A stretch of 64,000 bases of DNA from Desulforamulus hydrothermalis Lam5 = DSM 18033 (lineage in GTDB: Bacteria > Bacillota > Desulfotomaculia > Desulfotomaculales > Desulfotomaculaceae), in contig NZ_CAOS01000011.1 in NCBI RefSeq assembly GCF_000315365.1, forward strand, positions 266 through 64,265. The letters run 5' to 3'. How positions within the stretch are numbered: the first letter of the stretch is position 1; every line of letters begins with the position of its first letter. This document shows, piece after piece, positions 6,658 to 33,987 of the stretch. The translations under genes were made by a program, and so were the position numbers. A model generated the notes under the pieces. It searched no databases, was not told the DNA's origin, and saw only the letters and a program-made list of their open reading frames with translations.

Positions 6658-6960
6658 ACGCCTGCTTAGGCAGGCGGCAGAGTGTCGACAAACATTATCG
6701 GTGGTTTATGATCCCCTTTGGCTCCGGTCTACGCACCGACAGCACTATGATTCGCTCCGGTCGCCCTTGAGGTCGCCTCAAACGGGCCGTCCTGGCCCGG
6801 TTCGGCTGGCGCCCACGTCCTGTGGGCGCCACCACAATGGCTCCTTTCGCTCATCAAGTGCTGTGACCGGTGCTTCGACAAGTCGCCGACAGGGGATCAT
6901 AAAACCACCTCACTTTTTTTACACCTTTGTCTACAGTCTGACGCCTGTTTAGGCAGGCGG
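6658..6960 (+). mobile_element. MITE-like terminator-associated element, copy A (full length)
   Basis: The core (6678-6940, 263 bases) begins CAGAGTGTCGACAAAC and ends CTACAGTCTG. It is bracketed by two 20-base direct repeats, 6658-6677 and 6941-6960, that differ at one base and each contain the hairpin GCCTGCTTAGGCAGGC or GCCTGTTTAGGCAGGC. Inside are perfect hairpins (GGCGCCCAC 6808-6816 with GTGGGCGCC 6822-6830; GGGCC 6784-6788 with GGCCC 6794-6798) and long imperfect terminal inverted repeats, GGTGGTTTATGATCCCC at left answering GGGGATCATAAAACCACC at right. About 87% or more of the core is the same as copy B by eye. No convincing gene inside. It sits at the 3' end of the nuo operon. Confidence 0.8.
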
Positions 6961-17893: not shown

Positions 17894-17984
17894 TAATAAT
17901 TAATTCTTTCAGAGTGTCGCCAAAGGTTATCGTGGGTTGATATGTTTTACAACCTTTGTCAACAGTCTTAGTTATTTATTCTTT
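17894..17984 (+). mobile_element. MITE-like element, copy D (minimal)
   Basis: A 59-base core (17910-17968) has only the two ends: CAGAGTGTCGCCAAAGGTTA at left and TTTTACAACCTTTGTCAACA then GTCT at right, which pair with each other. It is bracketed by AT-rich 16-base direct repeats, 17894-17909 and 17969-17984, that match at 13 of 16 positions and share ATTCTTT. Unlike copies A-C the flank is not a hairpin. It sits between the start of rnhB and the end of rbgA. Confidence 0.6.
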
Positions 17985-26946: not shown

Positions 26947-28122
26947 CTACCATACCTGCAACACCAAGCACTTTAAATAATGGCTTTCCGGATAGGCCAG
27001 CAGCATGGGATGATCTTTAGCCTGGCGGCGCAATTCTACTAATCTTAATTGACGGCCGGCATCCCGGGCGGCCTCCTGAATTACTTGCAGGAATAAGTCC
27101 TCTTTCATATGATAAGAACAGGAACAGGTAATTAAGTAACCTCCCGGTGGCAGCAGTTTCATGCCCCGGAGGTTAATTTCTTTATAGCCGCGAACGGCCC
27201 CCGCCACTGCCTGGCTTGATTTGGTAAAAGCCGGCGGGTCGAGAATCACCACATCAAACTTATCACCGGCCTTTTCCATAGCCCTTAATTCGTCAAAACT
27301 ATTGCCTTCCTTAAAAGAACATAAATCACCGTATCCGTTTAATTGTGCATTGGCACGGGCCACCTCCAAAGCCGGGGCGGCTATATCCAAACCCAGCACT
27401 TGACGGGCACCGTACTTGGCGGCATACATGGCAAAGGTACCGGTATGACAGAAGCAATCAAGCACCCGACCCCCTTTAACCAGTCCCTGCAAGGCCATGC
27501 GATTTTCCCGCTGGTCCAAAAAATAACCCGTTTTTTGCCCCCCGGCCAGGTCTACCACAAACTTAATGCCGTTTTCTTTAATTACCACCTTAGGATCAAA
27601 GGGCTGTCCCACAAACCCTGTAATTAACGGTAATCCTTCCAGTTTACGAACCGCCACATCATTTCTTTCATAGATGCCCGCCGGCTGCATGACTTCCTGC
27701 AGTACTTTAAAAATAGTTGCTTTATGGACGTCGATACCCAAAGCCAGGGTTTGTACTACCAGGTAATCAGCAAACTTATCAACAATTAAAGCAGGCAGAA
27801 AATCCGCCTCACCAAAAATTACCCGGCAAGCGTTAGTATCACGCACCACTTGCTGACGATATTGCCAGGCAGCCTGAATCCTGCGGCGAAAAAAATCTTC
27901 ATCAATCTCTTCCGCCGGTTGTCTGGTCATTATACGAATGGTTATCTGGGAGGCCGGGTTAATATAGCCCCGACCCAAAAATCTGTCACGGCAATCATAA
28001 ACATCCACAATATCTCCCGGTGCGTACGGCCCTTTTATTTCCTTAATTTCACCCCGGTAAACCCAGGGATGCCCGTTGATAATGCGTTTTTGTTTGCCCT
28101 GGTGCAAAATCGCTTTTGCCAT
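26947..28122 (-). CDS. Class I SAM-dependent rRNA methyltransferase (RlmI-like)
   Basis: A 391-residue protein with an N-terminal PUA domain (about 1-75, HQGKQKRIINGHPWVYRGEI) and a C-terminal Rossmann methyltransferase: motif I VLDCFCHTGTFAMYAA (about 224-239) and the catalytic-type motif VVILDPPAFTKS (about 295-306). This is the RlmI family that makes 5-methylcytosine in 23S rRNA; the local target is not known. It ends just before the convergent AlbA_2 gene. The MITE-like copy C lies upstream. Confidence 0.88.
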   Translation of the reverse strand: MAKAILHQGKQKRIINGHPWVYRGEIKEIKGPYAPGDIVDVYDCRDRFLGRGYINPASQITIRIMTRQPAEEIDEDFFRRRIQAAWQYRQQVVRDTNACRVIFGEADFLPALIVDKFADYLVVQTLALGIDVHKATIFKVLQEVMQPAGIYERNDVAVRKLEGLPLITGFVGQPFDPKVVIKENGIKFVVDLAGGQKTGYFLDQRENRMALQGLVKGGRVLDCFCHTGTFAMYAAKYGARQVLGLDIAAPALEVARANAQLNGYGDLCSFKEGNSFDELRAMEKAGDKFDVVILDPPAFTKSSQAVAGAVRGYKEINLRGMKLLPPGGYLITCSCSYHMKEDLFLQVIQEAARDAGRQLRLVELRRQAKDHPMLLAYPESHYLKCLVLQVW

Positions 28123-28191: not shown

Positions 28192-28375
28192 AAGTGAGAA
28201 CAGCTATTTCTCACTTCAGAGTGTCGACAAACATCATCGGTGGTTTATGATCCCCTCGCTCATCAAGTGCTGTGACCGGTACTTCGGCAAGTTGACCACA
28301 GGGGATCATAAAACCACCTACTTTGTTTTACAACCTTTGCCTGCAGTCTGAAGTGAGAATAGTTATTTCTCACTT
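28192..28375 (+). mobile_element. MITE-like element, copy C (internally deleted)
   Basis: A 134-base core (28217-28350) from CAGAGTGTCGACAAACATCA to CTGCAGTCTG. Compared with copies A and B it lacks about 130 internal bases between GATCCCC and TCGCTCATCAAG. It is flanked by 25-base direct repeats, 28192-28216 and 28351-28375, that match at 23 of 25 positions and each form the hairpin GTGAGAA...TTCTCAC. The two differences are C-to-T in the loop. It lies after the mtaD stop on the minus strand. Confidence 0.8.
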
Positions 28376-28441
28376 CAGACTGCAGGCAAATGAGCCGGCG
28401 GTTCAGAATGCCGGCAAATTCTTGTTGCAAACCTCAGCAGT
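28376..28441. repeat. Inverted element end next to copy C
   Basis: CAGACTGCAGGCAAA (28376-28390) is the exact reverse complement of the right end of copy C (28336-28350). With the 25-base hairpin between them this gives a palindrome of 55 bases. The sequence then continues with a degenerate GGCGGTTCAGAAT, like the element's inner end. It may be a second, decayed element in reverse orientation, stopping at the mtaD stop codon. Confidence 0.5.
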
Positions 28442-29743
28442 TTACTGACCGGCCAACCTGGCAGCCCGTTCCCGTACTTCATACATTACCCGCTCTTCGT
28501 CAATGGTTAAAACAACCCGATCCAACATCACCACTTTGCCGTCAATAATCACCGTACGAACATCCGAAGCACCGGCTGCATAGGCAATATTAGCTACCAG
28601 GTGATGACGGGGACACATATGGGGTTGGGTGGCATCAAGCAAAATTATATCTGCCCGCATCCCTTCTTTGATTAAACCGACCCGATCCCCCAGACCCATG
28701 CAGAGAGCCCCGTCAATGGTGGCCATTTGCAAAGCACGGTAAGCCGGCAGAACTTCCGGGTTCATGGTGCTGACCTTTTGCAGATAAGAGCCGGTTCTCA
28801 GTTCTTCCAGCATGTCCAGGTTATTATTGCTGGCTGTGCCATCCGTACCGATACCAACTGTGGCGCCCAGCTCCAGCAGCCTGGCCACCGGAGCAATACC
28901 ACTGGCCAACTTCATATTGCTCTGGGGATTGTAAGCAATACCCATGGCTTTTTGAGCCAGAATTTCCATATCCTGCTCATCCAGATGTACACAATGGGCA
29001 GCCAGTACAGGAAATTTAAATAATCCTAAACTATCCAGATGCTGTACCGGTGTTTTGCCGTACCGTTTTTTAATTTCCTCCACTTCCGCCAGTGTTTCCG
29101 ATACATGAATGTTAATCCCCAGTTTAAGCTTTGCAGCCAAATTCATTACCTTATCCAAATAATCCGGCGGACAGGTATAGGGAGCATGGGGACCCAGCAT
29201 CACTGTAATACGACCGTCCGCTTTGCCGTGCCAGTTTCTGGCCAGTTCTTCGGCATCAGCCAGAGCCTTGTCTGCGGTAGGCAGCACACCGATCATCCCC
29301 CGGGACAGCATGGCCCGCATGCCGCTGTTTTCTACTGCCCTGGCCACCTCGTGCATGTGGTCATACATATCGCCAAAACAAGTGGTGCCTGATTTAATCA
29401 TCTCTAAACAAGCCAGCATACTGCCCCAGTAAATATCTTCACCAGTCATTTTAGCCTCAAAAGGCCATATTTTTTCCGACAACCATTTCATCAGGGGCAG
29501 GTCGTCAGCATAACCTCGGAGCAAGGTCATGGCCGCATGGGTATGACAGTTAATAAAGCCCGGCATGGCTACTTGTCCGTCAGCCTCAATGACCTCGTCC
29601 ATATCAAAGGACCCGGATGCCGAACCCGGAAGACCCACATGGGTAATCCAGCCGTCTTCAATAAGAATTTCGCCCGCATTGATGATGGCCTCCGGGCCTT
29701 CCATAGTTAAAATTGTCGCCCCGCGGATTAATAACTTATTCAA
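28442..29743 (-). CDS. mtaD: 5-methylthioadenosine/S-adenosylhomocysteine deaminase
   Basis: A 433-residue amidohydrolase that deaminates methylthioadenosine and adenosylhomocysteine to their inosine forms. Metal residues are seen in INCHTHAAMTLLRG (His about 66 and 68), 'INIHVSETLAEV' and 'AHCVHLDEQD', and the Asp in 'GIGTDGTASNNNLDM'. Length and sequence fit the MtaD/TrzA group. It is the last gene of the mtnP-mtnA-ahcY-aldolase-mtaD cluster, which supports the assignment over guanine or chlorohydrolase-like roles. Confidence 0.9.
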   Translation of the reverse strand: MNKLLIRGATILTMEGPEAIINAGEILIEDGWITHVGLPGSASGSFDMDEVIEADGQVAMPGFINCHTHAAMTLLRGYADDLPLMKWLSEKIWPFEAKMTGEDIYWGSMLACLEMIKSGTTCFGDMYDHMHEVARAVENSGMRAMLSRGMIGVLPTADKALADAEELARNWHGKADGRITVMLGPHAPYTCPPDYLDKVMNLAAKLKLGINIHVSETLAEVEEIKKRYGKTPVQHLDSLGLFKFPVLAAHCVHLDEQDMEILAQKAMGIAYNPQSNMKLASGIAPVARLLELGATVGIGTDGTASNNNLDMLEELRTGSYLQKVSTMNPEVLPAYRALQMATIDGALCMGLGDRVGLIKEGMRADIILLDATQPHMCPRHHLVANIAYAAGASDVRTVIIDGKVVMLDRVVLTIDEERVMYEVRERAARLAGQ

Positions 29744-33674: not shown

Positions 33675-33987
33675 AAACACCCCCGTTAAGGGGTGTTTCA
33701 GAGTGTCGACGAACAGTATCGGCGGTTTATGATCCCCTTTGGCTCCGGTCTACGCACCGACAGCACTATGATTCGCTACGGTCGCCCTTGGGGTCGCCTC
33801 AAACGGCCCCTCCTGGCCCGGTTCGGCTGGCGCCCACATCCTGTGGGCGCCCCCCCAATGGCTCCTTTCGCTCATCAAGTGCTGTTACCGGTGCTTCGAC
33901 AAATCGCCGACAGGGGATCACAAAACCGCCTCATTTTGTTTTGCAACCTTTGTCTACAGTCTGAAACACCCCCGTTAAGGGGTGTTT
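33675..33987 (+). mobile_element. MITE-like terminator-associated element, copy B (full length)
   Basis: The core (33699-33963, 265 bases) begins CAGAGTGTCGACGAACAGTA and ends TGTCTACAGTCTG. It is flanked by two identical 24-base direct repeats (33675-33698 and 33964-33987), each a hairpin with the arms AAACACCCC and GGGGTGTTT. The core contains GGCGCCCAC-ATCCT-GTGGGCGCC and the long inverted ends GGCGGTTTATGATCCCC / GGGGATCACAAAACCGCC. Further inside, GCACCGACAGCAC at left answers GTGCTGTTACCGGTGC at right. No coding potential is evident. It lies four bases after the DUF1540 gene stop (minus strand). Confidence 0.85.

Follow-up and report, generated by a model that had tools for sequence, protein, structure and literature searches.

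The locus at 28192-28441 of the window, by which we mean the whole 64,000-nucleotide stretch of the Desulforamulus hydrothermalis genome that was analyzed, raises the question of how the right end of a mobile element came to be repeated in mirror image on the far side of a hairpin. The element, referred to here as copy C, has a - strand gene on each side, one for an amidohydrolase (28442-29743) and the other for a 23S rRNA methyltransferase-like protein (26947-28122). The top NCBIfam match of the amidohydrolase is N-ethylammeline chlorohydrolase, with relatives that include MTA/SAH deaminases, all of them scoring under the curated cut-offs.

Copy C is one member of a repeat family whose end motif, CAGRNTGTNGNCAAA, has 114 exact matches in the genome, as compared to 0 for a reversed control pattern. 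BLAST recovers at least 78 pieces of the family, with 40 of 156 candidates scored, and from the BLAST and motif counts we estimate a family size of roughly 100 copies, 59 of which were analyzed individually. Copies range in length from 54 to 272 bp, with a standard form of 263-266 bp, and those of full length form strong folds whichever strand is taken (z about -10 to -11). The window also holds copy A, a full-length 263-bp element (6678-6940) flanked on each side by a 20-bp hairpin repeat (6658-6960 with its repeats, + strand), and copy B, a full-length 265-bp element (33699-33963) between identical 24-bp hairpin repeats (33675-33987, + strand). A further 60-bp degenerate copy (17910-17969, + strand) is hardly more than two ends, and its flanks form no clear hairpin. 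In being short, non-coding, multi-copy, intergenic and bounded by inverted ends, the family resembles bacterial MITEs and the SPRITE and RUP repeats (PMC10969869). Unlike SPRITE and RUP, it brings no terminator of its own; a pre-existing host terminator is the target and gets duplicated.

Copy C itself is a 134-bp element (28217-28350, + strand), against a standard family length of ~265 bp. A 265-bp consensus built from 30 full-length copies shows what is missing: bases 40-169 (130 bp) and one further base, the deletion junction falling at 28255-28256 between GATCCCC (last base 28255) and TCGCTCATC (first base 28256). Both ends are kept: a left 15-bp terminal repeat, CAGAGTGTCGACAAA, at 28217-28231 on the + strand, and a right one, TTTGCCTGCAGTCTG, at 28336-28350 on the - strand, which differs from the family end TTTGTCTACAGTCTG by two private substitutions. 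The preliminary description had proposed a mobile element with two intact ends and about 130 bases lost from its interior, and the consensus bears this out exactly. We regard copy C as an internally deleted, non-autonomous IS1182-type element (MITE). Its deletion is not special, because about 16 of the 59 analyzed copies, copy C included, are internally deleted as well.

On either side of copy C stand two hairpins, at 28192-28216 (AAGTGAGAA..TTCTCACTT) and 28351-28375, both assigned to the - strand and identical at 23 of 25 positions. Read on the - strand, only the left one leads into a T-rich run, which marks it as the putative original terminator of the - strand gene; the right one, without that run, would be the duplicate. 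Across the family, direct repeats of 11-28 bp (median 22) adjoin the element on both sides in 54 of the 59 analyzed copies, and the same criteria are satisfied by 6 of 583 control pairs in which flanks were mismatched between copies. Most of these repeats are hairpins, with a longest paired run that is mostly 6-10, as compared to 2-3 in shuffles. Since their sequence differs from locus to locus, the repeats do not belong to the element but are duplicated target. Comparison of the flanks thus points to the whole hairpin, usually a terminator, as the target of the MITE and of the related insertion sequences described below; insertion at palindromic or terminator targets is a trait of the IS1182 family that this MITE family displays.

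Empty sites are available in a sister species, Desulforamulus putei DSM 12395 (G001), whose genome is collinear with the window. The cleanest is that of copy B, where D. putei has a single hairpin, AAACACCCCGTCAGGGGTGTTT, in place of the pair of identical 24-bp hairpins seen in the window. At the site of copy A there is also one hairpin in D. putei, unrelated in sequence. The D. putei interval equivalent to that of copy C contains one hairpin followed by the same T-rich run, with no element and no mirrored end. As evidence against its reading, the preliminary description would have accepted a lack of other paired copies together with a right flank of copy C that proves to be ordinary mtaD 3' UTR in related strains. 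D. putei comes close to this: the interval there is the short 3' end of a gene and holds a single hairpin, and the mirrored stretch has no counterpart.

A search of relatives for IS1182-type transposases (PF13751) identified complete IS1182-family elements with the 15-bp ends of the MITE in D. putei (1604 bp) and in a congener (G008, 1607 bp). The commonest MITE ends, CAGAGTGTCGACAAA on the left and CAGACTGTAGACAAA on the right, each have an exact counterpart on one of these autonomous elements. The encoded protein of 490 aa is an IS1182 transposase (DUF772 plus DDE domain), matching NCBIfam NF033551 at 456 bits (cut-off 270) as well as PF13751, PF05598 and PF01609. All five complete copies in G008 sit between whole-hairpin direct repeats, and the D. 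putei element has the two sides of one hairpin on two contigs. A 55%-identical relative of the transposase occurs in G004, again with hairpin repeats at 3 of 3 copies. Within the window's own genome (G000), a 16-contig draft assembly, no match to the partner group was found at E <= 1e-30; repeats are often lost at contig breaks in draft assemblies, and an orphaned MITE family does not strictly need an autonomous partner in the same genome. The PF13751 transposases that this genome does encode (L216, L223) were rejected as partners, their flanks being without MITE ends. From the shared ends and targets we infer that the MITE is mobilized in trans by an IS1182-family DDE transposase, and that such an enzyme once acted in this lineage. 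As a side observation, the MITE-rich genomes (G000, G007, G016) gave no match to the cognate transposase, and the genomes that bear the transposase (G001, G008, G004) have few or no copies of the RNA motif TwoAYGGAY discussed below.

The nearest precedent is IS1272 and its composite TnSha1, also of the IS1182 family. According to PMC4923244 and PMC5678879, these elements target inverted repeats, often transcription terminators, without specificity for primary sequence; several of the target hairpins have been confirmed as terminators, and the hairpin is deleted or replaced without target duplication. A review cited in those papers states that some IS1182 members target palindromic sequences. 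The partner elements described here have the transposase family and the hairpin targets in common with IS1272 and TnSha1, but their hairpin is duplicated whole rather than deleted or replaced. Replacement of the IS1272 type is not what is seen, given direct repeats at 54 of 59 copies and a single hairpin at the empty sites of D. putei. In PMC5678879, Wan et al. drew a hypothetical branch in which attack at the 5' foot of both stem-loops leads to hairpin duplication (Fig. 13, 3b-6b), and, judging from their flanks, the elements here behave as that alternative branch predicts. The transposase would recognize 15-bp ends, CAGASTGTNGACAAA, and insert at the foot of an intrinsic-terminator hairpin; at an extruded cruciform, the two element ends would attack the feet on opposite strands, and fill-in would then copy the hairpin, leaving it whole on both sides. 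Hairpin duplication may already be on record for individual IS1182 elements. What appears to be new is natural evidence for a hairpin-duplicating IS1182-family insertion, an outcome that PMC5678879 draws for IS1272 only as a model branch. The outcome is documented directly in sequence by dozens of natural insertions in which a whole hairpin has been duplicated perfectly or nearly so, and these suggest that DNA structure, and not a fixed stagger, can determine the length of target duplications where that length varies.

The family also carries a cargo. Full-length copies have a core that, on one strand, corresponds to the Rfam family TwoAYGGAY (RF01731) and passes its gathering threshold, as in copy A, where the match lies on the - strand (51.9 bits, threshold 43). 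Many family copies lack this core. Copy C, from which most of it has been deleted, has no covariance-model match (L001). Matches occur in 27 of 113 genomes of the order, in high copy number in some and many times in the genome studied here. TwoAYGGAY was ruled out as a part of the autonomous insertion sequences, which are filled by their ORF. Its strand has no orientation bias relative to terminators (18 vs 20). The motif was described as a candidate structured RNA from comparative genomics (PMC2864571), and PMC4333381 proposes that the RNA binds CsrA; the passages searched in the two papers make no statement linking it to a transposable element. Unlike in these published descriptions, TwoAYGGAY sits here as the cargo of a transposable element, and, to judge by its position between element ends, it would be MITE cargo in at least two bacterial families. 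Finding a named yet unexplained RNA family within mobile elements, and in more than one bacterial family, matters for any functional reading of it.

The feature that sets copy C apart lies beyond its right target hairpin. The 15 bases at 28376-28390 (CAGACTGCAGGCAAA, + strand) are the exact reverse complement of the right end at 28336-28350 (15/15), and together with the hairpin between them they form a palindrome at 28336-28390 with fully complementary 24-nt arms and a 7-nt loop. Both the 15-of-15 mirror and the 55-base palindrome had been reported in the preliminary description and are confirmed in the sequence. That description further suggested a hairpin-type processing of the element ends. 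A hairpin is indeed involved, but as the target: the 25-nt hairpin in the middle of the palindrome is the duplicated target, outside the element proper, and the element end is not itself the hairpin. In the 64-kb window, the palindrome is the sole inverted repeat of at least 18 nt with more than 90% complementarity within 60 bp, and its DNA folding energy is -28.4 kcal/mol as compared to -5.5 +/- 1.8 in shuffles; this uniqueness and stability rule out a chance palindrome. Matches to Rfam microRNA families (mir-4637 and others) lie far under the gathering scores and were dismissed as chance matches to a long hairpin. The right-end sequence TTTGCCTGCAGTCTG is present only twice in the genome when up to one mismatch is allowed, at 28336-28350 and, mirrored, at 28376-28390, and its two changes occur together in none of the other right ends (59 compared).

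Copy C is probably an IS1182-mobilized, hairpin-duplicating MITE insertion whose mirrored 15 bp record a fold-back event, and fold-back template switching at the hairpin is, among the origins considered for the mirrored end, the likeliest. Within the right hairpin copy, a 3' end of DNA would have folded back on itself, copied the adjacent right end of the element for 15 bases, and rejoined its own template, thereby lengthening the stem from 9 bp to 24 bp, either in association with the insertion or later. As expected of such copying, the new arm is the exact reverse complement of the arm beside it, private changes included. Fold-back is preferred because the mirrored stretch matches at 15 of 15 positions with the private substitutions, because the sequence has only two genomic occurrences, and because the likeness ends after 15 bases; it is further favored by the absence of the mirrored end from D. 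putei, which lacks the element as well, and of any other clear case among the scanned copies. Template switching at quasipalindromes is an established process in bacteria (PMC7202029) and can yield perfect stems (PMC8794818). As in those systems, a short or imperfect hairpin would here have become a longer, perfect one through copying of the nascent strand, the difference being that the copied stretch is a transposon end adjoining a duplicated terminator. Some points count against this reading. The mirrored stretch stops exactly at the boundary of the 15-bp terminal repeat, which for a random fold-back needs a coincidence, and a weak resemblance to the mirrored end recurs at 28404-28418; the negative search of this draft genome for a partner transposase also tells against it. 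That boundary speaks instead for the proposal in the preliminary description that a second element had inserted in reverse in the same hairpin. In a fuller version, this element, on the other side of the hairpin, would later have been deleted down to its 15-bp end and corrected to match copy C. Multiple insertions of the IS1272-type TnSha1 in one terminator, in both orientations, are on record (PMC4923244), a relative (G007) has a tandem pair with one hairpin in common, and palindrome correction could have copied the private substitutions into a pre-existing second end. Such a history nevertheless requires an insertion, a near-complete deletion that includes the outer hairpin copy, and the homogenization of two private substitutions. 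The 51 bases past the mirrored 15-mer bear no significant likeness to the element (24 of 200 shuffles score as well), and the inverted pairs that this proposal would lead one to look for elsewhere were absent from the copies scanned outward, where no further end was seen directly past a shared hairpin except for a 7-base match at L082. We therefore consider a second insertion unlikely.

Explanations that appeal to selection fare less well. The palindrome lies directly downstream of the amidohydrolase gene and gives a very stable fold in the predicted transcript, so that it could have been selected as a stronger terminator or mRNA-stabilizing hairpin for this - strand gene after the insertion had parted the first hairpin copy from its T-rich run. 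We find this very improbable, given that the second hairpin retains the T-rich run and by its sequence should still be able to terminate, that other copies manage without such an extension, and that there would be no reason for the added arm to reproduce the private end of the element; selection would at most have acted after fold-back. The least credible reading, and one we hardly entertain, is that the repeats as a whole are a host regulatory RNA family, kept at gene ends for its function and spread by selection, as the Rfam scores of full-length copies and the CsrA binding proposed in PMC4333381 might lead one to think. Direct repeats of identical targets, the empty sites and the ends held in common with an IS1182 insertion sequence all argue against it, as do the many copies without a core and the even distribution over the two strands relative to the terminator. 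If fold-back is indeed its origin, copy C alone would be a small, well-resolved natural case of a template-switch palindrome. A wider scheme for Desulforamulus and its relatives, in which IS1182-type attack at the 5' feet of both cruciform hairpins, TwoAYGGAY as MITE cargo, and fold-back during gap repair at copy C are all combined, is offered tentatively, as one that we doubt will hold in full.

The palindrome is a one-off, a single natural example. No mirrored end was present at the five autonomous IS1182 copies examined. At L082 (G000:C3, 930-1040), hairpins GGGACAGGAAAACCTGTCCC enclose a 54-bp copy; the left of them is preceded by CAGTCTG, possibly a remnant of a neighboring element or chance. 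In the window, the resemblance at 28404-28418 (CAGAATGCCGGCAAA) amounts to 12 of 15 positions of the mirrored end, which starts 28 bp earlier; a GCCGGC hairpin overlaps this site, and chance may account for the likeness.

Beyond the genus, TwoAYGGAY cores are bounded by CAGACTGAAGACAAA-type ends in a closed genome of another family (G016), and most copies with such ends have hairpin repeats (L191, L192, L194, L196, L198, L140, L167). A cognate family with altered ends is found in G007, where the hairpins of the two sides often differ, so that recombination or misassembly between copies is likely; flanks with different hairpins on the two sides were left out of the duplication counts. In the G007 tandem pair (L175, G007:C32), the right end of the upstream element adjoins the left hairpin of the TwoAYGGAY MITE in direct orientation, and the hairpin on the far side of the pair differs. 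At L173 and L177, also in G007, one MITE has on its left a hairpin matching that on the right of the other, a swap of flanks that suggests reciprocal exchange by recombination or misassembly. Elsewhere in the order, high-copy TwoAYGGAY cores in G046 (L180-L189), G038 (L205-L208) and G019 (L199-L204) lie in surroundings quite different from IS1182 ends. TwoAYGGAY is therefore not tied to IS1182 ends everywhere, and other repeat families of the order carry it too.
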